The notes under the pieces: generated by a model
What the model was told of the DNA's origin: nothing
Database searches by the model: none
Seen by the model: the letters and a program-made list of their open reading frames with translations, nothing else
Shown here: one piece after another, positions 2,418 to 45,124 of the stretch
Layout: every line of letters starts with the position of its first letter
Position numbering within the stretch: the stretch's first letter is position 1
Source of the DNA: Collybia mongolica
Taxonomy: Eukaryota; Basidiomycota; Agaricomycetes; Agaricales; Clitocybaceae
NCBI GenBank assembly: GCA_013420905.1
Contig: JAAXNY010000008.1
Span: forward strand, 1,984,001 to 2,048,000
Reading direction: 5' to 3'
DNA: 64,000 nt
Made by a program: the position numbers and the translations under genes

Positions 2418-5400
2418 ATGTCCTATCCACCTGCAAAAAAGAGACGTACCAAGAAAAATGCCCTGCATGAAGATGATGACCTTGCAGTAGATGTTGTCAC
2501 TCTGGAACGTGTACAGGTCAAATCCAAGAGAGGCATTACTGAAAAAAAGGTGCAGGTACCACTGCGACCTGAAATACATCATGGAGGGGATTCAGATATA
2601 TATCAGGTTGGAAACATACCTGAAGCTTTTTCCAGTGGTGTTTCCTATGAAAACAATCCAGAGGATAGCCATTCAATGCCACCAGCAGCAGAGGTGAAGG
2701 TAGGAGTGTGATTTAAGGAGTTGCCACCCTCTGATACCTGGCAGAACCAAGCATTCTACCTATTACAACAAGCCAAACAGTGGGAAGACATGTTGCAAGC
2801 ATTGCTTGCACGCGAATCTTTGCCAGAAGGGCTGTGCAATGTGTGTGCCAAACGGCACGCTCAATGGCGTTGTCGTGACTGTGATCAGAGGAAAATAATG
2901 TGTCATGGGTGCTTCCGGCAGCGCCATAAAGAAAACCCTTTGCATCGAGTTCAATATTGGACGGGGACATATTTCCGGGATGCCTCACTTTGGGAGGCCG
3001 GCGGGTACATGTTGGTGGGACATATGAAGGGCCCTGAAATATGTGATAGCCTTAGAAGACAGCTGGAAATGCTGGACAGACTTGAGGAAGCTGCTGATAC
3101 TGCAGAGCAACAAAGGTTATGTGGGGACAGTGTTAGCACCTTGGCCATGCCGATGGCTGATCATTCCATTGTGGCCAGTCAATCCAATGAGGCAAGTCAA
3201 TCCGTTATGCCGAGTCAATCCGATATGCCGAGTCAATCCGTTGTGCCGAGCCAATCTGATATGCCAAGTCAATCCGTTATGCCGAGTCAATCCGTTATGC
3301 CGAGTCAATCCGATATGCCGAGTCAATCCGTTGTGCCAAGCCAATCCGTTATGCTGAGTCAATCCGTTGCACCAAGTCAATCCAGTTCGGCTCCTACAAC
3401 AGCCACTGAATTGGATGATCCAGTTTGGACAGAGTTCTTATCATGGCAAGAAAGTGGTGTCAACACTGATGAGGCAGACAAAGATGCCATACTTGAGGAG
3501 GATGATGACGAACCCATTCCTGAGGAGGTACTGGATTTCTTCTTGCCTTCCATCCCACTACAGCCCAATGAACAGAGTCAAACAACACGGCCATCAAATG
3601 AAAGACAGACGGCCAATCCGACATCAGCTCCACCGGCCAAACGGCCACCACGGCATGATGCTTTGAACAATCCATATATTCGTGTGGTTCATACAAATGG
3701 AATTCATCATCTGGCACTCGTATGCTGCTCTTGCCAAGGACCAGGCTGCCTGCCAATGGACCTTGTGTTCTCTGGTTTGATGCCAACAACTTTTGACACA
3801 ATCCGATCTGTATTTACTCTGGCTGTGCTCGATAATTTCCGGTTATGCAGCCTTGAGTTGAAGGCTTCAGCATATCAATATTTTCAGCTCCTCAGACGCT
3901 ATACTCTACCTATGGCACCATCAATGGTACCCAATTTATATCATGAGCTGCAAAGGCTTTCTCGTATTTGGCGGTGGATGAAGAAGTTGAAGTGGGCTGG
4001 ATTCGGCCATGGAAAGGCCGATCCAAAGAATCCGGCACCAGGTGAAATGGCCATATTTTGTCCTACCTGCCCACAACCCGGAATTAATCTTCCTGAAGAT
4101 TGGAAAATGGATGAGAACCGGTAAGATATATAAACATTGATAAATGCATCTTGTCTCATTGTCTAAATTGATCCAGTTGGGTCTATCGGCCCTCCCTCAC
4201 TGCCAATGGCAACTTTAAGGCTGACCATGTGCGGCAGAAGGGCAATGCAAAGGATGTATGGTTATCAGAGGGTGGGGGGATGATGGCAAAGACAGAATCT
4301 TACAACAATTTTTTACATTCAGCCAAGGAACGTCAAACAGTAAGCCCTCCAAATATCTGCAAAGACTAGTGGCTGAATGTGGCAAATGGACAGAAAGCAC
4401 CATGTGAAAACAGGTTTCGAGCTGTTGAACAGGCACTCCTTTCATCCAAAGCTTGTGATATTACAGGAATTGTGGCCATTGCATGTGCCCGCCATGGATG
4501 TTTTGTGCCAAACAGTATTGCTAACCTATACAAAGGTGAACAGCAAAAGAACGTTGATTGGTCCTTCCTGACAGCTCTCAAAATCTTGAAAATTGATCCG
4601 GATCAAGGGGTGACATTCATATATGACATTGTGTGCCAATATTGGGTCCATTTATACTGGCGGATTGGTAACCTGCTGCCGGCCGGAATGGAAATTGACC
4701 CAGCCATTGGCTTATTCCATGTTCATGGACACAAGGAACAATGTTTTTTCCGGTATGCAACCTCATTTATAAAGGGAGCTGGAATGGTTGCAGGCGAAAT
4801 ACTAGAGTCATTATGGGCAGGGCTGAATGCCGTTTCACCAGCAATGCAAACAGCAACACTGGCACATTGGGCAGAAATGATGGATGATCATGTCACAGAT
4901 TCAAATCACAAGAAAGCCTTGAACATGGGTGTGTCCATTATTGGAGGGAAATAACTATGTCCTAATGATGTCCAGTGCCCTCATTGTGCAACCGGTTTCA
5001 AGAGGCCGTTGACATGTCAAAGAATACTGATCTATATTTCAAGAACATGACAGAAGGAATACCAGTGGAGAACACAGAGGAATGGGAACAGGAAATTGCA
5101 AGGGCCGAGGAACAGCATTGTTTCAATCCGGCCATGATGGATATTCTTGCAACACGGAAAGTCAACCTAGGCTCGGAATCGGATGTGGCCACCATCGGAT
5201 TGCAATCCGTCACCAGCCAGGCAGACAAGTGGATACAGCTAGCACTTAGTGTTGAAGCACAGCAGTGAGTGGAGAGTTTGCTTCACAAAAATAATACACT
5301 CATTGCAATAACAGGCTTGATTTGCAAGAACGGGTTTGCCGCCTCCGGAAAGACCCACGGGAGGAGGATCGGCAGGAGGTGGAACGGCTTCGGCATCTCT

Positions 5401-6351
5401 TAACAGCATTGATGGAAAATTTAGATGCACTCAAAGAAGAAGTTTGCATTGGCTCTCACAATCTACACCCATATGAAGACAGTGACATGCTGGGTTACTT
5501 TGAGAATATTGATGGTGCAGATGTGGACCATATGGATCCCAACCCACCAGCAGGCACAGATAATGGCCTAGATGAGCCTGCTATAATACCACCAGAAGAA
5601 AGGGTGCTATCCATGCCATCAACAAGTCTGCCACATGGCCATTTGTACTGTGCATTGGAACTTCAGCAACGAAAAGAGTTGGCCAACCAGCATTTGTCGG
5701 CCCTGCGTGCCGCAATTGCAGATAAATCATTTCAGTACTCACATGTCATGCGAGCGGCACCACGAAAATCCGTCACAACACGGTCTAGAAAGCAAATTTC
5801 AATGCTTAACAATGAGATTGCATCTTACTGCCGTGCCTACACCCGGTGCCGATCGGCCATTGTCCGGCTTGGTGCCGATGCTGCTACCCTTCAACAATTT
5901 CAAGTGCTGCTCAAGGATGATTTGAAAAGCAGCACTGCCATTCTGGACCCTAATAGACCTGGGTCGACAACATTGAGGTTATCATGGATTTGGCAAGGAC
6001 ATAATCCAAGTAATGGGGACTCGGATTCACTGCTTGAATGTGAGCATACTTCTTTCATGACCTTTATGGATCTCTAACACTGATTTAGTTAATCGTGTAC
6101 ACTGGCTTCGTGCCCATGGACACAAGCTGCGATGGAATGAAGAAGCTATTCTAGTTGGTTATGAGATGGAATGGACTGTCCGATATTACCATCGGCAAAT
6201 CAATGTGTGGAATGAAAGAGAGGCGGATACCAATAATTCGCTGGGTGCACGCTCCTATGCTGCGCAGAAAGCGGCCACCTGGTGGGCCATGGCCGTGGCC
6301 GCACAACGGCAGTTTCAGGCCATCAATCCAGCCTTTCCATTGATCATGTGA
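2418..6351 (+). CDS. KDZ transposase with N-terminal CxC2 cysteine cluster
   Basis: This is the cut-and-paste transposase of the element, presumably nuclear (PPAKKRRTKK near the N-terminus). Six exons join in frame: 2418-4120, 4177-4339, 4394-4928, 4976-5264, 5315-6039 and 6089-6351. An in-frame TGA at 2709-2711 separates the first about 97 codons from the rest; it could be a CGA-to-TGA mutation or mark a later start. Downstream 1,124 codons are open. Domains in order: CxC2 cluster at about 2815-3030 (CNVCAKRHAQWRCRDC, then CHGCFRQRH); a PSQS repeat; an acidic linker; then the KDZ catalytic region with TGIVAIACARHGCFVP, YDIVCQYW, GLFHVHGHKEQC and GEILESLWAGLN. The C-terminal helix contains RVHWLRAHG and EMEWTVRYYHRQ. 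Family assignment is firm; activity is doubtful because of the TGA. Confidence 0.92.
3172..3390 (+). repeat. 18-nt coding minisatellite (MPSQSV/D repeat)
   Basis: About eleven degenerate 18-nt units encode (M/V)PSQS(V/D) within the transposase, between the CxC2 cluster and the catalytic region. Each unit holds the string GTCAATCCG, linking it to the CCAATCCG repeats elsewhere in this element. Confidence 0.85.
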
Positions 6352-6412: not shown

Positions 6413-7630
6413 TGAAAGGGGGCTCCTGGGCTATAAGTGCGCTGATGCTATGTAATGTAATCCCTCACACACACACACCAAACCTAACAATCAACACACG
6501 AACAGTAGGAATCGCCTGTTTTGAGTTTGGGTTCAAGTGCTTAGAAGCACTAAGCTTTGAATAGTACTAGCCAAAGCCCTTTCCAATGATCTCTCAACGG
6601 GTTCGATTTAGACAAAAGCTTCAACACAGGTTCAAAAACCTGCTAGGTATATTTATAATATCTCTCGATCCAATAGACTGAGTACCAAGTGTACATTCAA
6701 TTATTAGTGATCCCAAGCGGATCTATAAGTCCAAGCGACTTATCAAACAATACAGTGCCAAGTGCACTAAGGCCAAGTGCCTAGTAATTCCAACAGACAA
6801 TACAGTACTAAGTTCCAAGTGAACTAAGTTTCTTTAATTCTGTGGTTCTCCAATCAATTCCAATCAAGACACGTTGAAGCAATCTGATCCTTAATTCGGG
6901 CACGCAATAGTGTTTTAAACAAATGTGATTTGTATACTCTATAGTCGTGCGAAGTGGGGGCAAGATTCCTTGCCTTAGCGCTACTTATCTACAGTCTATT
7001 TATAGTGTACAAACTAAATATCATACGGAATTGTAAATTTTACACGGAACCGCGCTCCCGCGCGCCAAGGATCTGTATTCAATGCTGATGCGTCCTCTAC
7101 AACTTGGCGCGCGCGCCATGCGTGCCAATTATGCCGTTTACTGGTTACTTATCAAATATTGAAAGAGCTGGCTAAACTCTTGTCAAGTCGCGACCGCGCA
7201 CTCCATTATTTAAAACAGCGTGGCACTGTCATTTACTCCTCCTGATTGTCCCGGTTGCTATTCACGGGGTCCCGTCGCTTCCGGTAGTTAACACCAAGTA
7301 CCCCCTGACTAGGATCGGGTTGTGCAAGTCCCGAATTTACAATTACTTCTCCTATTAATGATGATCCCCGGACTAATGATATCATACTACAACGGTTACT
7401 TATGAACTAAGACACCGAGGTTGTAACCGGGCATGGTGAATAGGACTAATAATAGACCGTACTCATAGTCCTCTGTACTGATAGTGTATTATCCATTAGA
7501 CTAGTTCACTCTGATTAGCCGTCTTGGAGCTCGACTCTAATCCTTTATTACCGTTTACTTGGTTATTAGAAATGATACTAATAGCCTTACTTGTCGACTT
7601 TACAAGTGCAAACAATTTCGGGCCCTATCA
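6413..7630 (-). repeat. 3' LTR of Gypsy-1
   Basis: The LTR begins TGAAAGGGGG and ends GGGCCCTATCA on the plus strand, giving TG...CA termini on either strand. It is colinear with 17819-19034, with scattered mismatches, mostly C/T or G/A. It retains CpG-rich islands (for example the CGCGCGC-rich stretch near 7100). An (AC)n run at about 6467 lies near one end. Confidence 0.95.
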
Positions 7631-8078
7631 TCTCCCCCATACCACAAATGTAGACTGTCCTCAGTCTCTCTTTGCCGGCATGTTGGTCCAATACTTCGGG
7701 TCTGCACGCGTCTAATCTTTCAGTACAAGGTTACAACAGTTCCGCTTTTAGACAGGTAGGTGCGCAATGTTGGGATCGAGCCCAGAGGTTTACTTCCCAT
7801 CAGGATTGTGACAGTTATATACATCTCCTGAGAGAATACTTGACATTCGGACATTGCTTTACAGATATTTCAGTCATCTGAACCTTTCTCTCGTTATGTT
7901 TCTGACACTTCAGCAAGAGATCGGTACTCCTGCTTGTCCTTTAGAACTTCGCAATGCAGGGTCGTGCGTTTTAAAAGCTCGCGCCCTAGCTAAGTTTTAG
8001 ACAATTTGGACTTTATAGCCCATTTCTAAATTTCTTTGCTATTTGCATCGCTCAAACACTCCAACTTCTCTAAACCAA
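7631..8078 (+). promoter_or_regulatory. Purine tract of Gypsy-1 and upstream region of the antisense gene
   Basis: Read on the minus strand, a GGGGGAGA purine tract directly precedes the 3' LTR (complement of 7631-7640), as expected for plus-strand priming. The remaining approximately 440 bp lie upstream of the antisense gene. They hold a TATA-like TTTATAG at about 8012, but I recognise no other element. Confidence 0.55.
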
Positions 8079-10016
8079 ATGTCTTCTACTTCCACTTCTG
8101 CCATGGCTCGTGCCCTGCGCTCGCCTTCCGCGCTGTCCCTCTCGCTCTCCACCGCGATTTTACCGACTGAGGGCTGTTCCCCCACTATGGTCTATGTGGA
8201 CCAGCCGGTCCCCTCATTTTCCGACCTCCTTGAAGATGCCGAGGGCGATGTCTTTGTCGCCATGGAGCAAGGGTGGATTATTATGGCCGAGGAACTCGCG
8301 CCCCGTATGGACCATCAGGGCCCCCTTGACCTCGATGAGTTGATTGACTTCGTCGATCACTGCTCCATGCTCATCGTACGCCCATCTTTTACTTATTTAC
8401 TGGTCTCAGGATGCCATCACTGGCGTGGTCCGCGGCGCGTGTTTTTTGCTGCCATATCCGGCTATTCTCCTCCTGCGCGCGCTTCACCTTCAAGTGATGC
8501 GCATCCCAGTCGACGCGCGCGAGGCTTCGTGGTCTTCCTGGCGCATGGTCATATCGACTGACCTGGGCCACAATTCCATTCTTCTGGTAAGTGACTTGTT
8601 TACTTCTTTACTCTGCCTGCCCTTGTCAAGCTGACTACCTTTTACTTTAGGGCCAGGCTCCCACTGTGGAGCAAGTCCTGGACCAGGTGGGGTCGCGCTT
8701 CGAGCGCGACAATGGTGAAAGTATCTTTCAGGATACTTTCCTCGTCCCTCCTTGCATGGTTGGCGCACCGCGCCGTTACCATCAGTACCGGGACAGTTGG
8801 TCCGCCGCGCCCTTGCCGGCGCACTCCCCAGTCTTGGTACCAGCGGTTCATCTAATACTGCTTTTTATTACTTTTCTTCTGTGGTTGACTTATTTCAATA
8901 GCCCCTCAAGCGGAAGCGTAACGCAGGGTCCAAGGGCAAAGGCCGCGCGGTTCCGCAGGTATATACCATCCTTGGTTTCACGGGTTTCACATTATTCCTG
9001 ACTTGCTTTCAAAATTCTAGTCCGACATGTCGCGTGCCCAGGGGGCTGGCAGTGATGCTGCGCTGCGTCCCTCGGAAGCAGGTCCCGTATGTCTCTTTTC
9101 TCTTCTGAACTCATTTACTTTTACTCATTTTTATCTCCTTAGTCCTCTGGGCAGCCGCCGGTAAAGGTTGAGGTCCCCGAGCTCCGGCTCTTTAATGAAG
9201 AGATTGCGCGCCAGTTGGCTCAAGAGGGGTTCGCGGAGTTGTTACCTCCCGCGGCCCCTTCTCCTCGCCGGTCACGTAAGACCACTCGTTCTAGGGATAG
9301 GGTTCAGGCGACACGCCGCAAGCACGCGCTGGTTCCCAACCGGGAGCTGATGCCGCTACAATCCCCTATTACCTCCCTGCTGGCTGACCTTGCGCCTCGG
9401 CGCTCTACTGTATGTTCATTACTCTTTTATTTCTTGTTACTGATCATTCTTACTAGGTGGGCTATCCTTGCACAATGTGCGCCACCTGCAGCGACATCGA
9501 GTGCTCCTTCAACGGTTGGGGTAAACCATGCGTTGAATGTGCCACCGCCAAGAAGGGGAAGTGCAGCTTCAGTCTCACTCCCCAGAAGCGCGCTAGGCTT
9601 CGTGAGGATCTGGGGCCTATGCTTGGTGCGGGCATTTCTAGTAAGCCATTTTCTTTCTGTCTTTTTGTTTACTAATGATTTTACTTATTCTACTAGCGGT
9701 TGCTGAAGCCTATGCTCAGCTAGGCGACGCGGACTCTCTTGCCGCGGAGGTCATTCAGGCCGCTAACCGCGCGCTTGAAATGCGCAACTCCTTGTTGGCG
9801 CGCATAGTTGGCACTATCGGTAGGTTGTACGAGGAGGAAGGCCTGGAGGGCCTTCAAAACCTCTTGCTGACTACGCCAGCCACGGAGAGCGCTCTCCTCT
9901 TCTACGCGGATTTCCAGAACCTCCCTTGGCCGCCCTTGGAGGAAGAAGCAGAGGTTGATGACGGTTCTTCGTCGTCAAGTTCCTCTTCGTCCGTGCCTGA
10001 CAGCGAGGAGGAGTAG
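8079..10016 (+). CDS. Antisense zinc-cluster protein gene carried by Gypsy-1 (8 exons)
   Basis: I do not recognise this gene by name. Eight exons join in frame with GT-AG borders: 8079-8375, 8410-8586, 8651-8836, 8902-8958, 9021-9086, 9143-9409, 9457-9640 and 9697-10016, giving about 517 aa. The introns are 34-65 nt. Features: a PLKRKRN basic stretch (likely nuclear localisation signal) in exon 4; a cysteine array CTMCATCSDIEC ... CVECATAKKGKC in exon 7 (spacing C-x2-C-x2-C-x4-C-x8-C-x2-C-x7-C, resembling but not matching fungal Zn2Cys6 clusters); and an acidic, serine-rich C-terminus ending VPDSEEE. I infer a nuclear DNA-binding or regulatory protein. It lies antisense between pol and the 3' LTR, so its introns would not be spliced out of the sense retroviral RNA. 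The start ATG was chosen as the first in frame, followed at once by an S/T-rich stretch. Confidence 0.85.
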
Positions 10017-10590: not shown

Positions 10591-13157
10591 CTAGTCGTAG
10601 AGGTATAAAAAGGGCATTAGGGAACCCCATCTACAAATTACTTCTTCGAACAGCCACCTTCCCAAGGTCTTGCCATCCTCAGATTTGAGGGGCGCGCCTT
10701 CCATCCACGAAGACAGTGCACATCTTCCTTGGACAATGTATTTATAACCGTTAGACGATGGGCTCATATACATGGTGTCCGCATGCAATACTTGGAATAT
10801 AGACGGCGTGTGGGTTATGACAGGAGGGATTCTCAACAAAGTTAAGAGCCTTGTCTGACAGATGTGACATGACTTCACATACCATGATACATTGCGTTCC
10901 ATTTCTGGCCACCAAAATCTTTTATCTATTAAGGATTTTGTTGCATAGAAACCCCTATGTCCAACAGAATCGTGAGACGCCTTCATCATATATGTTCGGT
11001 GATTTTTATCAACAACAAGCTGGTGCGCGCTATCGATATTTTTCCTATACATCCTGCCTTCTGGATCCAAAAAGAAATTAGACGCCTGCCTTGCAAACTT
11101 TAGGTAGGCGCGATCTGTCATTCCTTTTGGTCTCTTTTGTGGTCTTTTTAACCATTCTTTTATTAAAGGTAGGTTTTTATCCTGTTCCTGCGCCGTAGGT
11201 GTTCGTTTAGACTCGTCATATACTTCCCTTACATTAGGGTCATATTTAAACTTTTCATCGGGTATGACAGTAGTATTTACAAGTTGCTTTAGATAAGCTT
11301 CTCTTTGGATACCGAACTGTCCTAAACCTAAGTGCTGTTTTACTTCTCCAATAAATGCTGCTTCACCAGCCCAGGCATTGTTTACTTCAACTTCAAAATC
11401 AGAGATTTCCTTCGCAAGTTGGAATAAATATCTGCCGCGCATGTCGATCTCCTCTTTAAAATCTGACAGTTCCAAAGGGTCATCCAACCCTTCCGTTGGG
11501 TTGATAAACTTTAAAGGACCTGAGGGTTCGTCGTAATCATTGTCTGGGTCTGGGTAGACCGGATCCCCTAGCCGCGCGTCTCGTCTTGACAGACCATCTG
11601 GGCCAAAGCCTTTACCAGCTTTATGAACCAGAGTAAAGTGGAACATAAGTATCCTATCAATCCACCTATTTACCGTTGCATTAGGTCCTAGACTTGGGTT
11701 TGATAACATCCCCTTAATGTACTTTGCATCCGTTTCCACTACCAAATTTTGTACTCCAATAAACCAATAATAACATGCCATTAGAACTCTCATCAATCCG
11801 AATAGCTCTCGTTTGGGTTGTGAGAAGCGCGCTTCGCGCTCATTCAGAGTTATCGAGTCAAATCTAGCATAGTGCTTTCTTCCAGGTATATCAGGGTCTT
11901 CCTGATAGATATAGTAGCCTACGGCTTTCCATGATGTATCTACTGACAATACCACTGGCGTATTCCATGGCGCCTAACACCTGGAGCACCAGGTAGCTCT
12001 TCTTCTGTTCCGTCCAGCAGTTCGTAGCACGTTGCTGGACCGCGCACAGGTACATCATCAATGTAGGGTATTGTGACATGTGGTACCTCATCCTGTAGGA
12101 TGTATGTGACATCATCATGAAATATTGGAACTGAATTCGTCCATCCCATAGGAAGTGTTACTAGTCTCAGCGTGCCAAACGGTGTTTGGAACGTGGTTAG
12201 ATCGCGCGAGGTTTCTGCTAAAGGCCTCTCATTGTATCCTACATATAGATCCATCATTCCGCCACAAGCGCGCCCTGCGAAGTGTTCTGCTAGTTCTTCG
12301 GTAGCGGGTGGTAAGCCCGAGTGCGCTATTGTGACTGCATTCAGCGGTTCTAGACTATGTACAATTCTAAGCTTCTTTCCTGGGCCTTTCTTTAATATGG
12401 TAAACCATCTAGACCTATATGATGAATTGGACCTCTCGTAGACCCCTGCATCAATTTTAGTTTTGATGATTTTACAAACATCTTCATAGATCCCTGGTGG
12501 GATTCTAATGTTCCTTTCTGTCCACGGCGTATGTGGGACTACTGGTATCTCAACGGGAGGAAAATATTCCTTCTTAAAGCTACCGCGCTCACTATCATTC
12601 CAAGCAAAACCATCATTATGTTTGCACATAAAGTCGTGGATTATATCCATCTCTTTAGGTTTTAAGAAGCTCTCTTCTTCGTGTACCCTTTGGAATTCCG
12701 CGCGCCTTTCCTCAGTATACCTTCCAGTTGGTTTAAACAGAGGTGGGTTAGGCGTTAGAACTGGTAGGGCTGCTAAAGGGTCACCCTTTAAATCTCTGAT
12801 AATTCTAAATTTATCAGGCAGGTCCGCCAGTGTTGGTTTTGTTTTCAAATGTACTGGTTTATACTTCTTTCCTACTAGCTGATCCATGGGCTCAATATTA
12901 CACTTTTCACTTGTTGCAGTTCCAAGACCGCGCTCATTGGTGCCAATTTGCCACTGCTTTAATTTACTTAAAGCTTTATTGATCATGGGCTGTTCTTGAG
13001 CGTATGTCATAGGTCTAGTGGGTGTACTTGCTGGGTCGCTGCTGTTCTGCTCGTAGTTTATTACTGGTCCATCGCGCTCATCTACGGAAGCCAAGTACGT
13101 GGCTAGTAATTCACGTTCAGGTACTGTACTATTCATGTTCACATCACTTCTAGACAA
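10591..13157 (-). pseudogene. Gypsy-1 pol: RT, RNase H and truncated integrase
   Basis: The RT part (13157-11940) shows IPYIDDVPV, the YIDD catalytic motif, and PFGTLRLVTLPMGWTNS. Close to 11960 the frame changes and the RT C-terminal (thumb/connection) part is missing: RT sequence passes straight into RNase H (VVLSVDTSWKAVGYYIYQ). Integrase follows with its zinc-binding HHCC region (HDSVGHRGFY, CHICQTR) and the first catalytic Asp in LHADTMYM. It ends at 10591 before the second Asp and the Glu. The Ty3/gypsy RT-RNaseH-IN order is clear. The protein cannot be functional as read. Confidence 0.9.
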
Positions 13158-13285
13158 AAAGACATCTCTAAGTTCTTTGTGACCAAAATTCCGCTTATCA
13201 GTAGGGTGTCTATAACCCGTTATAATAAAGTTTCCGTTCTCATCTTCAGCAATTTCTACGGCTAGCTCTCCTTGATCACTTTGGA

Positions 13286-14263
13286 TTAATTCATCGAAGG
13301 CCGAAAATCCTGCTCCGGTTGTCTTTTCAACAGCTTAGGCGGTGATCCCTTTGCATGGGTAGGGATAGTACACCTTCGTCCCGTGTTAGGGTCCGTGATA
13401 GTGACTACTTGTCCCCCATCCCGAGCATTTTTGATCTGACTTTCCGTGAGTGTATCAAACGGTCTCCCGAGCAATACTTTGTATGCGGGTGAATTTATGA
13501 TATGTACTTGGAGGTAGATGGCCATGTCATTAAACAAGAAAGGGACATTGCGCGCTAATCCCGCTGTTTTCTCAACTTGTTTATTAGCACTCTGCATGTG
13601 TATGACAACGTCCAGATCCCATGAAATATCTAAGTCTAAAGCCGTTTGTTTAGCCATTGATACTATTTGGGATCCCCCATCTAATAAAGATTCCTCCGTT
13701 CCTACCCCATTTATTACTGGATATACTGCGCGCAAAGAGGCCGATTCTTTTGCTACATACAACTGTTTGGGCTCTTCCCCAGCTGGTAAAGATTCTAAAT
13801 ACTGTAGGACTGGGTCTCCACATATTATAGATCCCTTAGGTATTCCGCCGCGGTCATACTCTGAGATGAAGAAAGACTGGAATGGGATTGACTCTACTGG
13901 TAGCGCGTCATGCCGTAAGTAGTTATCATCAAGTTCCCAGTCCCCTCCAAAGGGTAAGACGTCTTCCTCATCTATTCCGTTTATTTGCAAGTTAGCGTCC
14001 CTTTGGGTGAGGGACTTACGTCTGGCAGTTACAATATTCTTTATCCCATCTCTAATGGTTTTTGACGAGCCCATTAACTCTCCCGTGGTCAATGTGATAG
14101 GGTTGTCTAACACTTTAGCAATTATATCGCCACCTTTTAATTTTACTTCTATCGGGGACTTAGTTTCATAAGTCGGACCGCGCTTAGTGTTAAAATTAGG
14201 TAGCGGATCAACTGGTTCAGGGTTGCGTTCTGTTCTCCGGGGTATGTAGGGTACCACGGGCAC
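13286..14263 (-). pseudogene. Gypsy-1 aspartic protease region
   Basis: This 325-codon frame has a retropepsin-like core: LLDGGSQIVSM in place of the usual D-S/T-G, and YKVLLGRPFDTL as the second conserved block. It ends in a stop, while the next frame (FSAFDELIQSDQGEL) leads toward RT, so a frameshift separates protease from RT at about 13310. That shift may be programmed or a mutation; I cannot tell. The DGG instead of DTG/DSG also leaves catalytic competence open. Confidence 0.75.
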
Positions 14264-14284
14264 ATCGATGTAGGGTAATTCTTT

Positions 14285-14491: not shown

Positions 14492-16467
14492 CGGACCTAA
14501 TTGAAACCCGACTCTTTAACCTTGTTTTGGTTATTGAGTTCTGCTACCTGCCCTAATAAAGTACTCATTTGTGCTTGTAAGGCTACTATGTCAGGATTCG
14601 GCGCGCTCTTTGCCGTAGGATTATAGTTATTATTTATATATTCCTGTTTCTGCATCTGAGGCGGTACTGGCAACGCAGTTTGCACGCTCTGTTGTCCTAA
14701 CATTTGTTGTGCTTGAAATTGTGCCATTTGTGCCATTATGGCTTTCAAGGTTCCAATGTCGTTACTATTGTCTCCTGCATTATGTGACTGCATAACGGAC
14801 AATACTCCTGGAGCGGGTCCTTCCATGACATCTCCGTAATAAAGGGCCGCTACCTTCTTTGAATGGAAGTGTTCCACTTTATCTTTCAATGATACCGTTT
14901 CTGGTTCTCTTGGGATATATGATCCATCTGGTAAGCATACTCCTCCATTTGTGTTGGTTTTTATTTTCCCTTCCTCAAAATGTTTCTGTTTCTCGGGACA
15001 GGCCATTATGAAGTGTCCGGGTGTAAAACAGTAGTGACATTTATACACATTCGGTCTTTGCGGTTGTCCTTCTTTAGGCTTTCCGTACTGATTCTGATAC
15101 TGATGCTGCTGGGGTGCGCTATTCGTGGCATGGTTCTGAACAGTTGCTTGTTGAAGCGCTTTCATTACATCCTTGAATCCACTCCTCGTATTCTTCTCAT
15201 TTACTTGGAGACAGTCTAACAAATTAACTATTTGTTGTTTTATTTCATCCATCTCTACTTTGATTTTGGGCGCTGCTGTTGCTGTTATGGACGTTATAAA
15301 CGATCTATTTGTGTCTGGAATATTCATGTTGGCTACACCTTCAGAAATGCTGATTGCAGTTGCTATAACTTCCTCCAGATCATACTGATCCCCTTTTTGT
15401 CGTGTGAGCGCGGCGGCTTTGGCAATAGTATTAGGATCTGCTCGGTTGTTTGTAGCAACGGCCTGTCCTGCCTGTGTAGCATTAGACTGATTATTCCCTA
15501 GCAGGGTTAGCCTTCCTTGTACTTGGGATCTGAAGACTTCATCTAGACATCCCAAGAACTTGGTAACTAATTCTCGGTTAGAGATAATTGGTGGCCTAAC
15601 TCCCAAGAGTTTAATAGATTCTGCTTTGAATTCACACTTCAGCTTTTTCAGCGCGGCCTCATCGGTTACTCCAATACGTGGGTTGGCGCAACACACTGCT
15701 TCTAACTTGGCTACTGATCCTTCTACTTGATCGAGTGCTTCCGGATAACTAGAGATCAACTCTGTCTTGAAATCCATCCAAGTGCCTGTCTTATAGTGGT
15801 CCAATGCCCTCCACTCATTCTCTGATTGTAGGTCTGCGTATTTTCCTAACATTAACTTCTTTTCTTCATCATTTGTAATGTTACACTCCTTCCATAGGAC
15901 CTCCATTCGCTCCAGAAACCGGATTAAACCCGTGGCCTCTTTTCCTTTGAATACTGGTGCATCACGGACGCCTGGTTGGGGCATATATTTACGAGGGGGT
16001 TCAGTCATGATTACTGAACGGTTCTGAGTAGCTAACGAGTTCGGGTTTGCTACTGGGTTTACTACAGACAATCTTCCGCGTGCTACTGGTCTACTAGTAG
16101 TCGATATGTTTCCTAAGGGCTCTGGAGTTCTAAATACTTGCCTTGGTCCTGAAGATCCAAAGGCTGGTTGTGAAGATCCTCGTGTGCGCACTCGCCTAGG
16201 AGGTGGTAACGACTCTGTTACTCCAGCGTTTCTGTACTTTACACTCCCCCACATGTCCTTGCGGACTCCGCACGGACTCCGTACGGACTCCGCAAGGACA
16301 GCACAAAGTCCACACGGACTCTGCACGGACTCCGCGCGGACTCACTTACTTTCTTTTATTATGAAGCACTTACTTACTCTTTTACTTACTAACAATCTAT
16401 ATAATTAATAGAATATAACATATATTATTACTAAGTATAATACATATATGATAAAATAATTTAATAT

Positions 16468-16496
16468 AGGCGGGGGCGGGGGCCCCCGCCCCCCCG
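16468..16496. repeat. G/C-only palindrome in H8-1
   Basis: Two G-runs separated by single C mirror into C-runs (GGCGGGGGCGGGGG followed by its complement). It is self-complementary and G-quadruplex-capable. The same block occurs in H8-5 near 44812-44840 and, reduced, in H8-2 near 25562 and H8-4 near 51483. Confidence 0.8.
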
Positions 16497-16578
16497 TCGT
16501 CCTCATCGGCCCTCGCGACGTCGTCAGCGGCCTGGGTTTCAGCGGCGGCGGCACTGGCCGCTTGTCTTGTCGTTGTCC

Positions 16579-17113
16579 CCGTTGTCCTTAGTCGTCGTTG
16601 TCGTTGTCGTCCTCGTTGTCCTTAGTCGTCGTCATCCTCGTGGTGGTGGTGGTCGTCTTTGTTGTAGTTGTCGTCGTTGTCGTCGCGCCGTTGTTAGTGC
16701 CGCTGCTGTTGCCGTCATTGCTGCAGGCCTCGTCAGCACTGTTGCTGCTGTTGCTGTTGCTGTCTTCGTCGTTGTCGTTGTCATTGTCGTTGTCGCCTTC
16801 CTCACTATTGCTGTTGGCGGCCGTATCGTTTGTCTTGAGTTCCTGAAGTGGGGGGGAGGGGACGCGCTGCGTGGTGAGCGTGTGGGTGAACGGCGGTGTA
16901 TGACTCACCTGGTTCTGCCCCTCGGGGCGCCCTTTCCTCGTCGTCCCCTCGTTCCGCGTCCGTTTCTATCCTTCTCCCCACATCGTCTTGTGCGTCGTCA
17001 TGTTGATGTCGGTTGGCGTTCGATGCGTTGGCGTTGGCGGCGTGGGTGCGTTGGCGTTGGTGTCGGCGTTGGCGGTTTTGGCGGGCGTCGTTGATGTGGT
17101 TGAAAAGAACCAA
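16579..17113 (-). CDS. H8 cargo gene, copy in H8-1 (two exons, low complexity)
   Basis: Exon 1 (about 17113-16909) encodes FNHINDARQNRQRRHQRQR and ends in ERAPRGAEPG. A 66-nt GT-AG intron (16908-16843) follows. Exon 2 encodes Asn/Asp/Ser/Thr-rich repeats ending in DDNDNDD. The same splice borders and PRGAE block are found in H8-5, H8-2 and CAC-2, which supports a real expressed unit. Function is unknown, and the second exon may be only repeat expansion. Confidence 0.45.
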
Positions 17114-17217
17114 CGAAGACGTGGCAACAGTAATGTGACCATTGCACGTGCCTTGTAATCATGTGACCTAAGTCTGTTGACTTGAGGCCAGTGATTCTGT
17201 AGCTAGAAATGCCCGCC

Positions 17218-17299
17218 TTGCCCAACGGTTATGAACGCCAAACATATCACGTAATGTTCGTGCCTGTACGCGTTCGAACCTAGTCGGATGCAAGTTTTT
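17218..17299 (+). ncRNA. tRNA-like Pol III promoter unit in H8-1
   Basis: An A-box match TTGCCCAACGG (17218-17228) is followed about 42 nt later by a B-box-like GCGTTCGAACC (17270-17280) and a TTTTT terminator (17295-17299). Between the boxes AACAT and ATGTT could pair as an anticodon-like arm. The acceptor and T stems pair poorly, so it is not a tRNA gene; a SINE-like or regulatory origin is inferred. Confidence 0.45.
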
Positions 17300-17798
17300 C
17301 ACCACCGTTATGTTATGTTATTAATAACAAATAGTATATATAATTTGTGTAAATAAAATTTATATTACTAAGTCGATTAGTAATCGACTGGCCGCGCGGA
17401 CTCTGCGAGCTGTCCGTCCGTGCTGGTCCGCGTGTCCGCGTAAAATTACGCGGATTGATGCGGACTCGGCGCGGACACGGATTCTTGTCTGGCTGACGGT
17501 CCTGCCAAATGAGTCCGTGCGGAGTCCGTGTGTCCGCACGGAGTCCGCACGGGTTATGTGGCTTAGTGTAAAGACCTCCAGCGTTTTGCGAATTTTTAGT
17601 CTGCCGCGTTTTTGTAGCTACTTGTCTTGCAAGTGGCTGATTAGTTAGTCTGTTTGACAAGCTGGCTTGTGGGCATGGCTCTTGAGACAGATTGACTAAA
17701 CTTTCTCCGCTCTACTTCAATTTGTAGACGACGTTACTCGTCTTGGTATAATATTTTTCAAAGAAAGATGCTCTCTTTAGACTATTCAAAACTCTGAA

Positions 17799-17818: not shown

Positions 17819-19034
17819 TGAAAGGGGGCTCCTGGGCTATAAGTGTGCTGATGCTATGAAATGTAATCCCTTACACACACACACCAAACCTAACAATCAA
17901 CACACGAACAGTAGGAATCGCCTGTTTTGAGTTCGGGTTCAAGTGCTTAGAAGCACTAAGCTTTGAATAGTACTAGCCAAAGCCCTTCCCAATGATCTCT
18001 CAATGGGTTTGATTTAGACAAAAGCTTCAACACAGGTTTAACAACCTGCTAGGTATATTTATAATATCTCTCGATCCAATAGACTGAGTACCAAGTGTAC
18101 GTTCAATTATTAATGATCCCAAGTGGATCTATAAGTCCAAGCGACTTATCAAACAATACAGTGCCAAGTGCACTAGGGCCAAGTGCCTAGTAATTCCAAC
18201 GGACAATACGGTACTAAGTTCCAAGTGAACTAAGTTTCTTTAATTCTGTGGTTCTTCAATCAATTCCAATCAAGACACGTTGAAGCAATCTGATCCTTAA
18301 TTCGGGCACGCAATAGTGTTTTAACAAATGTGATTTGTATACTCTATAGTAGTGCGAAGTGGGGGCAAGATTCCTTGCCTTAGCGCTACTCATCTACAGT
18401 CTATTTATAGTGTACAAACTAAATATCATACGGAATTGTAAATTTTACACGGAACCGCGCTCCCGCGCGCCAAGGATCTGTATTCAATGCTGATGCGTCC
18501 TCTACAACTTGGCATGCGCACCATGCGTGCCAATTATGCCGTTTACTGGTTACTTATCAAATATTGAAAGAGCTGGCTAAACTCTTATCAAGTCACGACC
18601 GCGCGCTTTGTTATTTAAAACAGTGCAGCACTGTCATTTACTCCTCCTGATTGTCCCGGTTGCTATTCACGGGGTCCCGTCGCTTCCGGTAGTTAACACC
18701 AAGTACCCCTGACTAGGATCGGGTTGTGCAAGTCCCGAATTTACAATTACTTCTCCTATTAATGATGATCCCCGGACTAATGATATCATACTACAACGGT
18801 TACTTATGAACTAAGACACCGAGGTTGTAACCGGGCATGGTGAATAGGACTAATAATAGACCGTACTCATAGTCCTCTGTACTGATAGTGTATTATCCAT
18901 TAGACTAGTTCACTCTGATTAGCTGTCTTGGAGCTCGACTCTAATCCTTTATTACCGTTTACTTGGTTATTAGAAATGATACTAATAGCCTTACTTGTCG
19001 ACTTTATAAGTGCAAACAATTTCGGGCCCTATCA
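17819..19034 (-). repeat. 5' LTR of Gypsy-1
   Basis: This is the direct copy of 6413-7630 with the same termini. Differences by eye are scattered single bases, mostly transitions at CpG positions. Confidence 0.95.
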
Positions 19035-20251
19035 TCGCTTCTCTGGGGACTTTACACTGAGCCACATGAGCCACACAGACCACACAGACAAATGCAGATG
19101 TCTGCAGTCTGAGCTCAGACCCTGTTTCACAGGGAGCCCTGCTTAATTGGCAGTCTGCATCTGAGCCAAGTCAAAGCTAAGTCTATAAATTCACACTGTT
19201 CTTGGATGCTCAGACCCAGCTTGGAACAACTCCTCATGAAGTCCATGCAGACTGTCCAGATTGCTTACTTAAATATAGTTACCATTGCTTATTTAATGCA
19301 CAAAAATACAATATTTTGGAGAATCAAATACAAGGCCTCAAGGTTACATGACATGTGCATAAAGCATGGAGATCAACCATTTGGCAATATGAGCTTGTCA
19401 GTCCAAGGTGCTTGTTTTTATAATGACCCCTGCTGCCTACTCTTGGCCATTACTGGCAATGGCTGAATATTGTTAATAGGTACTACATCACCTGTCAGCC
19501 TTTTGTCAACCTCCACCACTACATCTCTAGCTGCCCCTCCCATCACCTCCCTGCCATATGATTGTGCACAATACTGCCAAATACAATGCCAGGTCCCACT
19601 GCCATGGATACCACCACCCTCTCTCATACCCACCCCTCTCAGTGAAAATAACAACTGCCAAATTACAAGAGCTGCAATAAGAACCACAGAGGCACCTGCC
19701 ACATTACCAGTGACTGCCTGCCCACATCTGCTAGTGAGCAGCTAGCATGGTGGACATGGGTGGTGCAGTGGTGTATTCCATATGGCAGAACCATCACCTG
19801 GTGGCTGGGTGTGCACCCCTGGATGTGCTGTCTAGACCAAGTAGTGCCAATCACCTCTGTGCCCAAACCAGATGTGTGTAAGGTGAGTGCATATGTGCCC
19901 CACATCTAGTTGCTCAGATATACCTTGTTCTATTGTATATGCACCTATATGCTGCTGCATACCTTGAGACTACCTTGGTGTAATTCTATCTACCTTGTGA
20001 TATGTTTTTATTCCTTTTACAAAAATTAGTTTACTTTTTACTAATACTTTACCCCTGTACTATTTGCACAGCTCTAGTAGGCTGATATAGACTTCTGGTA
20101 CAGCCACAGTATTTATCCAATGTACCTATTTATAGATTGGACTACCCAATTGTAAAACTTAAACTAATTGTTTAAATTTTAAGACAATTAATAAACAAAG
20201 AATATACCAAATAGTTAAATCACTAAGGAAGTGATATTGATCCAAATACCT
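19035..20251. other. Decayed TE sequence with an H8 terminal relic
   Basis: At 19055 GGGACTTTACACTGAGCCACATGA-like sequence matches the H8 left end, followed by CAGACCACACAGAC-type decayed subterminal repeats to about 19190. No matching right end was found. The part at 19400-19905 is C-rich with some open frames but no recognisable protein. CpG is nearly absent throughout, so it is old TE material. I see no supported gene. Confidence 0.6.
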
Positions 20252-40601: not shown

Positions 40602-40729
40602 ATTGCTTCTTGACTTGTTACTCCCACGTGCACAGCCACCTGGTCTACTCGTCAACACCGTCTTGCACACCCAGCTGCCTCAAAACTCCTCTGATCCCCT
40701 GATCTCCCATATACTGCTGTGGTTATACC

Positions 40730-42775
40730 ATGGCCAAAGACAAACCTCCAACCCGATCTCAGCGATCGGCGGACCGTATGGCAAAACCGCCGGATTTACG
40801 TGAACTTTTGCACGGATCCATGTCCCCAGCCCCCGTCTCCGAGCTGGTAGCCAGCCTGCATCCTCAAGCAGGCCCCTCCCTTGCGTCACAGGTCTTTTTC
40901 AGGCCCACGACTCCCACACCCATCGTAGAGGACGACGACGATGACAATGACAACAATGCCACCAACCCTGACCCTACTGTTACCGGCCCTCCTGCCAATC
41001 CCCCTGCTTCTCCTGTCCAAGACCATGACGTTGTCATGGCTGAGGTAGAGGGGGATGCTTTCATGGACGAGTTTAAGGATCCGGAGACATTTCATGCCTC
41101 TGGTGCTAAGGATAAGGTCCCAGTTGACCTTGAAGCTGCCACTACATCCATCCACAATGTCACAGAGATGCTCAACCTCTGGGCCATCAATGGCTATCGT
41201 GTCCCAGACAAGGCCTCAGTCAAGCTTGTCCAAGAGCTCCTCCAAGCTGTCTTCACAGTCTCCGAAGCTGGTCTCGTTGAACATGCCGTTACGGCGGATG
41301 CTGAGTCCAAGAGCATCGCTCTCCAAGCCCTCATTGAGAGTCTCCGTGTGCAGGCGCCTCCGGCCCCTGTCCCCATCCCTTCCAACCAACCACCTCGTCC
41401 TGGACGCTCTCTGCCCCCTCAATCCACCAATGCTACTGCGGACCCAGCTGGCCTTCGCCGTCCCTCCAAGAAAGTCATCTACACATGCTCTACCAAGCGT
41501 TCCCTTCCTCCTAGATCAAAGACCTTTGTGTCCGCAGCATCTGCTGCAATCTCCACCCCTCAGCCTCCCTCTGCGAAGAAGGCGAAGGGCCCCGCCGCAG
41601 CTCAGGCGGGGCTTGTCCAGATGGCCAAGTCCTTTCCCTCAGCACCCATTGCCTCCATTGTGCGCGCTCAGCAGGTCGTGTCCGGTGATATTGTCCCTAC
41701 CCCTTCGGACTCGGCCCGAGCGAAAGCTCGATGCAAGAGATCCACCACACACGGCCCCTCCTGGAAGGAGGTAGTTGTCATCACTTCACCCCCCACCCAC
41801 TGGCCTGATACACCAGTGGTTGGGCCGCTGAACTCTCACCTTGGCAATCATAAGAGGGCCATTTGCGTCGTGTCTGAGACCCAAAACCACCTCGGGGGCC
41901 TGGCCCTTGTGTGTGATGTTTTGCCAGTCGAAGATGACATCCAGGTCATGCATGCCTATTTTAGCGACACAGCTAAAAAGATACACAAAGACAACTCCGT
42001 GGAAACGCGTGTGGAAGTAGGCTCATCCAAGTCATTCCTTCGCATCCCCGACTTCCCTTACTTTGGAGCGCACATCAAGTACGCCGCCAATGGTACCCCC
42101 ATTCCCCTCACACCAGACGACATTGCCGAGATCCTTGGTAAATGCCCCTGGCGTGAGGCCATCCACTTTTACCAAGGGTCTAGGCCCCGGATGGTAAGAA
42201 ACTCCCAGACATCAGACACCAGCATGGTGTTCTTCAATATCTATGACTCGCGAGGTGGACAGCACCTCCGTAGCCTCAAGGGCTGAAGCTTCATGCTTGG
42301 GTCCAAGAAACTCACCATCCTGCCCGCTGAGAAGCAAGTCGGAGTCCCCATATGTCCCCGCTGCTGGAGGTATGGACACTGTACAGAGGTTTGTCCATTC
42401 AAGATGCAGCTGTGCTCCATCTGTGCCGGCCCACATGAAACCGACCACCACCGCGTGTTAGCCGCGTGCTGCAAAAAACAGCCCAAGGCCAACCCCCCTC
42501 GAGAGGCAACCCCTGCAGGTCACCCTTGCCCACACCCAGCTCGATGTGTCAACTGCACGCTTGCGCATGCATCTGACAGTCATATCTGCTTGTTCTGGAA
42601 GAACCGCTACAATCCAAAGTGGGTCTTCTCCAAGTATATCGCACAGAAGGTAGGCAATGAGCTGTTACGCTTCATTCCCGCCCCTAACTCACCTTTTCCC
42701 AATGTCACAGGAGGCAGGCTCCTTAGACGCCAGGTGAACCCTCAAGAAGTTCAACAGTTGTTGACTCATGCATAG
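40730..42775 (+). pseudogene. LINE-a ORF1 protein with CCHC knuckles
   Basis: This gag-like, RNA-binding protein of about 680 codons has one in-frame TGA at 42284-42286 where LINE-b has Lys. The N-terminus (MAKDKPPTRSQRS) is disordered; an acidic stretch (EDDDDDNDNN) and a Pro-rich linker follow. The C-terminal part carries knuckles: CPRCWRYGHCTEVC, CSICAGPHETDHHRVLAACC and CVNCTLAHASDSHIC. Its stop TAG overlaps ORF2: the ORF2 ATG at 42768 lies five bases upstream of the TAG, which suggests coupled translation. Confidence 0.9.
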
Positions 42776-43703
42776 TACAACCTCTGTAGACACTTTATGT
42801 ATTTATTGTCAGAATGTGGGACGCAAGCACAATTGGACAATCAACCTTCTGGAACGTATGAAATCCGTCTCAGATATCTTATTTCTCCAGGAACCACCAT
42901 GGTCCACTGTGAGATACACCGCCTCCCTGACAGAGAAGGACAGGGTCCCTGTTAAAGGGCCGCCGAACCACCTGGACTGGATAGCTATGTACCCTAAAGG
43001 GTTTGACGGGGCCAATGAAAGGCCACATGTCCTCGCTTATGTTAATTGGGCCATGCGCATGATCAAACCTAAGCTCCGATCTGACATTGTGAATCATCGC
43101 GATGTCATGGTCATCACTGTAAAAGGGCATCTTGGCCCCATACATCTGATGAACACCTACTTTGATGAGAACGGCTCGGCCATTTGGTACATCAAAGACC
43201 ACCTGGACACACTACCAGATTTGAGTTATATGGGGGGGGATTTTAATTGCCCTTCATCTCACTGGGACGTGACACTTACATGCAAACACCCCATGGCCTC
43301 TAGGCTCATGGAGTGTGCTGCAATACTTAACCTGGAGAGAGTGGCCCCGACATCCGGAGGGGTCACCCATCGGCCATATAACGTGGCGCTCCGTGGTTCG
43401 ATTCTCGATCTGGTGTTTGTCCCGATGTTCTGGGGCTACACAGCTGATCTAACGTTAGGAGACAAGGGGGAACCCGATCACCTTCCGTTATTACTGGATA
43501 TCCCCCTTAAGGTCTACTGGCCTGAGGGGAAAATGTCCATCAAAGTTGACTCCGAAGAAGAGGTGGACTTCCTCAGTGAAGTCTCCCTCCTCCTGGGTCA
43601 GATCCCGATCCCGGGCGCTATGTCAGCTGATCAAACCCAAGCCATTGCTAGGGCTATATCCGTTGCTTTTGGTGTGGCATGGTCTCATCACGCTAAGGCT
43701 AAC

Positions 43704-45124
43704 GAGGTCTTTACACTAAGCCACATAACCCGTGCGGACTCCGTGCGGACTCCGCGCGGACACACGGACTCCGCACGGAGTCCGCACGGACTCATTTGGC
43801 AGGACCGTCAGCCAGACAAGAATCCGTGTCCGCACCGAGTCCGCATCAATCCGCGTAATTTTACGCGGACACGCGGACTAGCACGGACGGACAGCTCGCA
43901 GAGTCCGCGCGGCCAGTCGATTACTAATCGGATTAGTAATATAAATTTTATTTACACAAATTATATATACTATTTGTTATTAATAACATAACATAACGGC
44001 GGTGAAAAACTTGCATCCGACTAGGTTCGAACGCGTAAAGGCACGAACATTACGTCATATGTTTGGCGTTCATAACCGTTGGGCAAGGCGGGCATTTCTA
44101 GCTACAGAATCACTGGCCTCAAGTCAACGGACTTAGGTCACATGATTACGAGGCACGTGCAATGGTCACATTACCGTTGCCACGTCTTCGTTGGTTCTTT
44201 TCAACCACATCAACGACGCCCGCCAAAACCGCCAACGCCGACACCAACGCCAACGCACCCACGCCGCCAATGCCAACGCATCGAACGCCAACCGACATCA
44301 ACATGACGACGCACAAGACGGTGTGGGGAGAAGGATAGAAACGGACGCGGAACGAGGGGACGACGAGGAAAGGGCGCCCCGAGGGGCAGAACCAGGTGAG
44401 TCGTACACCGCCGCTCACCCACACGCTCACCACGCAGCGCGTCCCCCCCTCCCCACTTCAGGAACTCGAAACGAAGGATACGGCCGCCAACAGCAACAGG
44501 AGGAAGGCGGCAACGACAACGACAACGACGAAGACAGCAACAGCAACAGCAGCAACAGTGCCGACGAGGCCTGCGGCAACGACGGCAACAGCAGCGGCAG
44601 CGGCGGCACTAACAACGGCGCGACGACGACGACGACAACTACAACAAAGACGACCACCACCACCACGAGGATGACGACGACTAAGGACAACGAGGACGAC
44701 GACGACAACGACGACTAAGGACAACGGGGACAACGACAAGACAAGCGGCCAGTGCCGCCGCCGCTGAAACCCAGGCCGCTGACGACGTCGCGGGGGCCGA
44801 CGAGGACGACGGGGGGGCGGGGGCCCCCGCCCCCGCCTATATTAAATTATTTTATCATATATGTATTATACTTAGTAATAATATATGTTTTATTCTATTA
44901 ATTATATAGATTGTTAGTAAGTAAAAGAGTAAGTAAGTGCTTCATAATAAAAGAAAGTAAGTGAGTCCGCGCGGACTCTGTGGAGTCCACACGGAGTCCG
45001 CGCGGAGTCCGTGCAGAGTCCGTGTGGACTTTGTGCTGTCCTTGCGGAGTCCGTACGGAGTCCGTGCGGACTTTTGCAGTCCGCGCGGAGTCCGCAAGGA
45101 CATGTGGGGGAGTGTAAAGTACAG
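43704..45124 (+). mobile_element. H8-5: CpG-rich H8 element in LINE-a
   Basis: The duplication AGGCTAAC lies at 43696-43703 and 45125-45132. Ends are GAGGTCTTTACACT and AGTGTAAAGTACAG. It is the best-preserved copy: subterminal GGACTCCG arrays at 43730-43915 and 44965-45105, the tRNA-like unit at about 44019-44105, the cargo gene at 44191-44718 and the G/C palindrome at about 44812-44840. It is nearly identical to H8-1 in reverse orientation. It is non-autonomous and recent. Confidence 0.93.
44191..44718 (+). CDS. H8 cargo gene, best copy
   Basis: Exon 1 (from about 44191) encodes FNHINDARQNRQRRHQRQR, a basic Ala/Asn-rich part and ERAPRGAEPG. A 66-nt intron with GTGAGT donor at 44396 and CTTCAG acceptor at 44461 keeps the frame whether spliced or not. 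Exon 2 starts TRNEGYGRQQQQ and runs into Asn/Asp/Ser/Thr tracts, ending DDDDNDD at 44718. I recognise no family. Conservation of exon-1 blocks and splice sites in CAC-2 argues that it was once under selection; the composition argues for caution. Confidence 0.5.
   Translation: MVLFNHINDARQNRQRRHQRQRTHAANANASNANRHQHDDAQDGVGRRIETDAERGDDEERAPRGAEPGESYTAAHPHAHHAARPPLPTSGTRNEGYGRQQQQEEGGNDNDNDEDSNSNSSNSADEACGNDGNSSGSGGTNNGATTTTTTTTKTTTTTTRMTTTKDNEDDDDNDD

Follow-up and report, generated by a model that had tools for sequence, protein, structure and literature searches.

A pair of intron-bearing antisense genes in a Ty3/Gypsy-type retrotransposon of Collybia mongolica as candidate regulators of the element

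The window analysed here, a stretch of 64,000 nucleotides (nt) from Collybia mongolica (assembly GCA_013420905.1, contig JAAXNY010000008.1, positions 1,984,001 to 2,048,000; coordinates below are those of the window), holds a copy of a long terminal repeat (LTR) retrotransposon and, antisense to its gag-pol, a multi-exon gene that we call aORF1 (8079-10016, plus strand). The element lies on the minus strand, with its 5′ LTR at 17819-19036 and its 3′ LTR at 6413-7632 (97.2% identical), and the order reverse transcriptase (RT) - RNase H - integrase identifies it as Ty3/Gypsy-type. Its open reading frames (ORFs) comprise gag (14497-16341), with a zinc knuckle slightly below the Pfam cut-off; protease (13286-14284), with a weak gag-asp_proteas match (E 0.025); RT (11940-13334), with a YIDD motif and a weak RVT_1 match (E 0.085); and RNase H with the integrase H2C2 domain (10617-11973), both good Pfam matches. 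Because all of these lie on the minus strand between the LTRs, aORF1 occupies an antisense slot between pol and the 3′ LTR, where a sequence-only reading of the window had placed it.

The same reading had proposed eight exons, seven GT-AG introns and a protein of 517 amino acids (aa), and all of these are present: the joined exons amount to 1554 nt, encoding 517 aa and a stop, and the predicted introns measure 34-65 nt, with a GC content of 60% in exons and 34% in introns of the window copy. Exon 1 (8079-8375; 99 aa) shows the strongest constraint (omega 0.075) and is followed by intron 1 (8376-8409), which at 34 nt is 17 nt shorter than the commonest form among aligned copies (51-64 nt in the other copies having it), so that the window copy may splice it poorly. 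Exon 2 (8410-8586), intron 2 (8587-8650) and exon 3 (8651-8836) lead to intron 3 (8837-8901), whose donor (GTACC at 8837) is missing in four old copies, L039-L042 (L numbers denote places in the genome), while an in-frame alternative GT lies 6 nt upstream; the exon-3/intron-3 boundary, and with it the 3′ end of exon 3, is therefore uncertain by 6 nt, or two codons. Exon 4 (8902-8958) holds the KRKR basic stretch (in PLKRKRN) and is followed by intron 4 (8959-9020), exon 5 (9021-9086) and intron 5 (9087-9142), and exon 6 (9143-9409) encodes an Arg/Lys-rich segment, RRSRKTTRSRDRVQATRRK. Beyond intron 6 (9410-9456), exon 7 (9457-9640) carries the cysteine array, and after intron 7 (9641-9696) exon 8 (9697-10016) encodes a conserved segment and an acidic Ser-rich tail; the KRKR stretch and this tail had likewise been noted before. 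The array had been counted as having seven cysteines and has six, C-x2-C-x7-C-x8-C-x2-C-x7-C. These six are conserved in 30 of 30 aligned copies, and the third cysteine of the window copy (exon-7 residue 11) is R in 28 of the 30, H in one and C in the window only, so we reject it as part of the motif. A TATA-like box, TTTTAAAAG (7969-7977, plus strand), lies 110 nt upstream of the aORF1 ATG, and the TATA-type box TTTTAAAA was found in all 19 stretches that reach this upstream region.

The window copy is incomplete. At the junction 10616|10617 about 2.5 kilobases (kb) are gone that are present in five of six copies compared (L010, L016, L018, L024 and L028; the sixth, L017, matches on one side only). 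In full copies this stretch comprises the end of pol in the sense direction, as seen in L024, and a second antisense gene, aORF2, whose loss from the window made it invisible to the first reading. Pfam left the integrase core of the L024 pol end unmatched and returned only SH3_Tf2-1 (E 0.012); we take this region to be integrase from its position and from known motifs. aORF2 runs in the same orientation as aORF1, opposite to gag-pol, and in oriented L018 spans 4352-5734 (raw L018 1327-2709, minus strand), with five predicted exons, four predicted introns (4490-4555, 4760-4821, 5155-5206 and 5307-5357) and 383 aa. A TATA-like box, TATAAAAA, lies about 106 nt upstream of its ATG and occurs in all 25 stretches holding the region; L037, the four old copies and the window itself are among them, and in the window it survives by its sequence as a remnant at 10604-10611 (plus strand) of the deleted gene. 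No 5-base-pair target-site duplication surrounds the window copy, the only copy inspected for one; its flanks differ (GCTGG and TCGCT), so this copy is likely rearranged. The upstream end of its gag ORF is altered by an apparent insertion at about 16.25-17.56 kb: the gag leader at 16250-17560 is a stretch with GGACTCCGCACGG-type repeats at both borders that resembles a separate insertion. A GGACTCCGCACGG-like repeat is also apparently translated near 43.9 kb of the window.

The sequence-only reading had suggested looking for the same gene in other copies. Each of the other full copies compared has aORF1 in the corresponding slot, and many further places have it too. Searches of the genome (45.97 megabases, 26 contigs) with single exons gave counts that are independent of the choice of slots below, include fragments and are lower bounds: at least 119 places for aORF1 exon 1, none of the 119 with an internal stop and all matches of useful length at 76% aa identity or more; at least 110 for aORF1 exon 7 (3/110 with stops); and at least 113 for aORF2 exon 5 (4/113 with a stop). 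The two genes usually travel together, with aORF2 exon 5 found 3.3-4.0 kb downstream on the same strand at 85 of the 119 aORF1 exon-1 places and within 2.5-11 kb at 96 of them; the partner is missing at 23 of 119 aORF1 places and 20 of 113 aORF2 places, some of which are fragments. For alignment, exons 7-8 of aORF1 yielded 40 scored full-length places (best first, out of 117 candidates), and 30 slots were assembled from the window, 19 of these 40 and 10 hand-chosen divergent places; the four old copies were added later and stand outside the 30. The spliced aORF1 frame is intact in 27 of the 30 slots, a figure that favours intact copies because of the best-first choice; of the other three, L017 is without the 5′ half, and L037 and L038 have decayed. 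The aORF2 frame is intact in 15 of 19 aligned copies, the 15 including L012, whose donor is changed.

Length changes in both genes are concentrated in the predicted introns. Among the 27 intact aORF1 copies, 15 distinct gap runs fall in the introns (384 nt) and only one, of 30 nt, in the exons (1554 nt), namely 30 extra nt within exon 1 of L023; in the intact aORF2 copies, frame-shifting gaps are confined to introns 1 and 2, the exon gaps being 3 nt (L010) and 6 nt (L016). The proportion of variable sites in aORF1 is 0.168 at codon position 1, 0.156 at position 2, 0.322 at position 3 and 0.168 in intron cores, and two of 28 positions in splice dinucleotides vary. In three of the 27 intact aORF1 copies (L013, L018 and L020) a donor reads AT instead of GT. 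The same change occurs in L037, L038, L040 and L042 and is in each case G to A, like cytosine deamination on the opposite strand; it may reflect methylation or a mutation process like repeat-induced point mutation.

To compare replacement and silent changes, we used a null model that reassigned each substitution to a randomly drawn site with matching base and CpG context; L017, L037 and L038 were left out of the aORF1 rates and L017, L021, L025 and L026 out of those for aORF2. Pairs of copies are not independent, and the pooled pair tests are therefore descriptive only. A comparison of nonsynonymous and synonymous rates (dN/dS) among copies, which had been recommended for this gene, gave a low value for aORF1, with an NG86 omega of 0.220 (27 copies, 351 pairs) and replacement/silent counts about a third of the context-matched null. 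In three divergent pairs the counts were 40/80, 33/62 and 49/55 (ratios of 0.50, 0.53 and 0.89) against null ratios of 2.2-2.3, with 0 of 1000 simulations as low in each, and frames +1 and +2 of the same pairs gave ratios above the null. Because the ratio is far below the null and the other frames show the opposite pattern, selection acts on the aORF1 protein. Comparisons of young with old copies gave 0.80-0.98 against a null of about 2 (0/1000 each), and those between old copies 1.00-1.33, with 0/300 simulations as low in five pairs and 2/300 in one. The decayed pair L037-L038 retains a smaller deficit (1.29 versus 2.06, 3/1000 as low), which we read as inherited. Variants shared among copies have a lower replacement/silent ratio than singletons (95/105 versus 72/45), a pattern that selection on the replicating lineage would produce. 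The control was the pol end/integrase in those copies, 11 among 16 aligned (3 with an internal stop), that measure exactly 1079 nt, and it gave 0.67 against a null of 1.87; in those 11 copies aORF1 gave 0.69, and aORF2 gave 1.13 in 10 of them. The aORF1 frame is thus under purifying selection close to that on integrase. For aORF2, NG86 omega was 0.364 (15 copies, 105 pairs), one single pair gave 1.11 versus 2.23 (12/1000 as low), and L018 compared with the four old copies gave 0.84-1.06 against about 2 (0/1000 each).

Both proteins have basic stretches and acidic tails; BLASTP detected no similarity between them, so a common origin of aORF1 and aORF2 is unsupported. aORF2 has a KKRTR stretch in a basic middle, a conserved C-terminal segment and an acidic tail. 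The aORF1 array invites comparison with the fungal Zn2Cys6 (Zn_clus, PF00172) regulators, which it resembles in having six cysteines in two C-x2-C halves, a basic segment and an acidic tail. However, the PF00172 profile found no match in aORF1, and against the canonical pattern, C-x2-C-x6-C-x5-12-C-x2-C-x6-8-C, the array fails at the C2-C3 spacing (7, not 6), the rest fitting. None of the 20 Zn_clus places in the genome coincides with an aORF1 exon-7 place. An AlphaFold model of exon 7 has short helices at both C-x2-C halves, as a zinc cluster also has, at a confidence (mean pLDDT 54) too low for the model to serve as evidence. PDB searches with aORF1 returned chance-level matches only.

Relatives outside the element family are few. 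The full aORF1 protein found no homolog at E <= 1 among 7997 candidates in a protein database that may be poor in fungi, for which reason the absence of homologs elsewhere says little. An exon-1 profile matched one of 505 candidates (P0002, 95% identical) and an aORF2 exon-5 profile one of 304 (P0003, 99% over 69% of the query); each is a lone predicted protein from a short JGI metagenome contig (3869 and 3612 bases), and no other outside relative turned up in that database. Viral contigs searched with RT and aORF1 exon 1 gave none. Within the genome, searches with exon 1 and exon 7 singly found no host lookalike gene; a search with the whole aORF1 protein (251 matches) covered the best matches only, weak matches of other exons falling outside its scope. 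A host paralog as parent gene is accordingly rejected as far as exons 1 and 7 reach, and the concern that aORF1 might be a chance insertion of a single-copy host gene found no support with either exon. Of the outcomes that the sequence-only reading had named as refuting it, neither this one nor the absence of the gene from other copies came about.

The slot, the copies, the frames, the confinement of length changes to introns and the replacement/silent deficit, strong in aORF1 and weaker in aORF2, are established directly. Building on these, we propose that the products of the two genes, whose frames selection keeps, would act as nuclear DNA-binding regulators of the element itself, a reading to which we give about an even chance. 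Transcription of each gene would start from a TATA-type promoter of its own (at 7969 for aORF1 and about 106 nt before the ATG for aORF2), followed by splicing and translation. Since the genomic RNA is read from the opposite strand and holds the splice sites only as complements, retrotransposition would carry the introns along unspliced. This explanation of intron survival had been offered from the window alone and is consistent with the copies: among the 30 aligned ones no intron has been precisely lost; in L042 a deletion spans aORF1 intron 7. With its basic segments, six-cysteine array and acidic tail, aORF1 might bind element DNA, most simply the LTR or the internal promoters, and so set gag-pol transcription, with aORF2 as a possible partner through its basic middle, conserved C-terminal segment and acidic tail; such a scheme would work like HBZ of HTLV-1 or gene23 of maize Grande. 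The most specific form of the proposal is tentative and, in our judgement, somewhat more likely to be wrong than right: a two-gene, intron-bearing antisense module of a six-cysteine DNA-binding protein and a partner, with promoters of their own, would form a private transcription switch whose introns persist because only unspliced sense RNA is copied.

Several observations weigh against this reading. The earlier description of aORF1 as a nuclear regulator remains conjectural, as no Pfam, PDB or confident fold match supports it: aORF1 matched no Pfam family at E <= 0.1, aORF2 gave only a chance-level match (SPECT1, E 0.2), the AlphaFold models of aORF1 exons 1 and 7 are of low confidence (mean pLDDT 54 each), and the exon-7 model had no useful match in the PDB. 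Candidate binding sites did not emerge either: CGG motifs were not clearly enriched, and the LTR, the leader and the two antisense promoters had no 11-mers in common. Selection on aORF2 is weaker: over all 105 pairs its ratio is 1.22 against a null of 1.94, shared and singleton variants have the same ratio (31/21 and 41/28), and among six old-old pairs the numbers of simulations as low were 0, 2, 15, 25, 84 and 129 of 300, placing two pairs at the null (129 and 84) and two at the border (25 and 15). aORF1 is broken in all four of the old copies L039-L042 and aORF2 in one of the four; dead copies should show such breakage, and looser constraint in that subfamily would fit it as well. L033 has LTR-like sequence immediately before the ATG in place of the aORF1 leader, so its aORF1 would have lost its own promoter. 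Finally, the intron cores of aORF1 are less variable than its third codon positions, unlike simple neutral introns. This might stem from the splice and branch signals of such short introns, from the scarcity of CpG sites in AT-rich sequence, or from some constraint acting on the sense RNA; the introns may carry constraint beyond splicing.

An unlikely but substantive alternative is that aORF1 and aORF2 are anti-silencing factors, which would bind element DNA and remove host silencing marks in the manner of VANC of VANDAL, a plant DNA transposon. Two extra conserved genes without a recognised family, at more than 100 places, would fit an arms race with the host. Sequence-specific anti-silencing proteins encoded by transposable elements exist, as VANC, an extra transposon-encoded protein acting on its transposon, illustrates (PMC10398659). 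The targets of VANC, however, are described there as tandem repeats in noncoding regions, unlike anything found here by a simple test for exact 11-mer repeats, which yielded nothing in the two antisense promoters and a lone CA run in the LTR, and which diverged repeats would escape; the 5′ leader does have repeats, within the apparently inserted stretch.

We think it less probable again that the two proteins act after transcription, in nuclear import of the complementary DNA complex, in RNA export or in the choice of insertion site. Basic stretches and acidic tails in both proteins would suit such tasks, and the CERV protein of Cer1 is reported to be needed for nuclear export of the genomic RNA (PMC10309623). 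On the other side, the promoter-like box that belongs to the antisense unit itself speaks for independent regulation more than for a function in the particle, and no link of either protein to Gag or integrase was found.

That the genes are captured host genes riding as passengers is improbable, even though multi-intron genes with TATA-type boxes look host-like and antisense capture would preserve their introns. Exons 1 and 7, searched singly, have no distant genome match that could represent a host parent. A passenger should evolve neutrally within the element, which the replacement/silent deficit of aORF1 contradicts, its constraint being near that of the pol end; and aORF2 frames are intact in three of the four old copies, which are 10-13% diverged from L018. 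About as improbable is the idea that antisense RNA is what matters and the protein is incidental, sense-antisense pairing feeding small-RNA silencing or self-limitation: antisense RNAs from LTR elements may themselves be regulatory (PMC7264820) and the low variability of the introns would suit this, but the aORF1 ratio lies far below the null while the other frames do the opposite, and the sole exon gap (30 nt) keeps the frame. Chance stitching of ORFs, for which one might cite splice sites picked by eye and the uncertain intron-3 donor, is vanishingly unlikely and already refuted by the comparison of copies, with the frame kept in 27 of 30, gaps in introns, a replacement/silent deficit and no stop at any of 119 exon-1 places.

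Other repeats share the window. A KDZ transposase gene with a CxC2 cysteine cluster (Pfam) occupies 2712-4954 and contains an 18-nt tandem repeat at 3125-3412 encoding SQSVMP-like repeats. Genes of this KDZ/CxC2 kind are associated with basidiomycetes, and together with the short introns it pointed to a fungal, likely basidiomycete, genome. At 53660-59158 and 40703-50484 a non-LTR element with endonuclease-RT-like ORFs was recognised by eye in two copies, one with an uninterrupted frame of 1208 aa and the other broken up. Elsewhere in the assembly, several copies of the retrotransposon are no more than about 12 kb from the end of a contig (among them C20:3402, C15:1208, C6:4862 and C7:350798 of 357283), and the contigs with copies close to their ends are C2, C6, C7, C9, C12, C15, C20 and C24. 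The family may be subtelomeric, or located where the assembly breaks.

Antisense genes between pol and the 3′ LTR are known from plants and from Boty of Botrytis and Sclerotinia (PMC7264820; PMC8365987, PMC4227169), so the earlier statement that no fungal case was known was too strong: Boty of Botrytis carries the antisense gene brtn (PMC7264820). Boty/BcGypsy1 of Botrytis cinerea and Sclerotinia is the nearest likeness, a fungal LTR element with an extra antisense gene in the same slot; it differs, in a comparison by description only, in that one extra gene is named there, as against two here with seven and four predicted introns. The slot is shared as well by gene23 of maize Grande, which has its own promoter and a nuclear product (PMC7264820), and by the antisense genes of rice RIRE2 and Silene Retand (aORF-3R), all of them plant elements; the main texts of PMC7264820 and PMC11963269 do not use the word intron. 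Like aORF-3R, aORF1 lies between pol and the 3′ LTR on the strand opposite to gag-pol and is conserved in most copies, the sign of promoters proper to aORF1 and aORF2 consisting of the TATA-like boxes only. For Retand, 104 antisense ORFs are reported in cluster representatives, each with at least one (PMC11963269), so some elements must hold more than one. Most Retand clusters have a TRP28 domain (PF04195), thought to bind DNA (PMC11963269); Pfam searches found this domain in neither aORF1 nor aORF2. Additional ORFs are also described in LTR elements of bdelloid rotifers (PMC5408684).

The closest analogues of the proposed role are retroviral. HBZ of HTLV-1 and APH-2 of HTLV-2 are described as nuclear antisense regulators of sense genes, and spliced antisense transcripts occur in deltaretroviruses (PMC8622228); aORF1 and aORF2 may be comparable in role. 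HBZ is a bZIP protein, whereas aORF1 has a six-cysteine array and neither protein has a bZIP match in Pfam, and the promoters of aORF1 and aORF2 are likely internal and not in the 3′ LTR. In a limited search of the open-access literature we came upon no description of a fungal LTR element with two multi-intron antisense genes. What is new here is the pair of multi-intron antisense genes with unmatched proteins, antisense extra genes as such being already known. The function of such genes in LTR elements is described as not known (PMC7264820); in this family it is directly testable, since more than 100 places offer two such genes, one of the two shows a pol-like selection signal, and the exon/intron pattern is clear. 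A retroelement whose genes have seven and four introns would, moreover, make a clean case of introns persisting through RNA replication.

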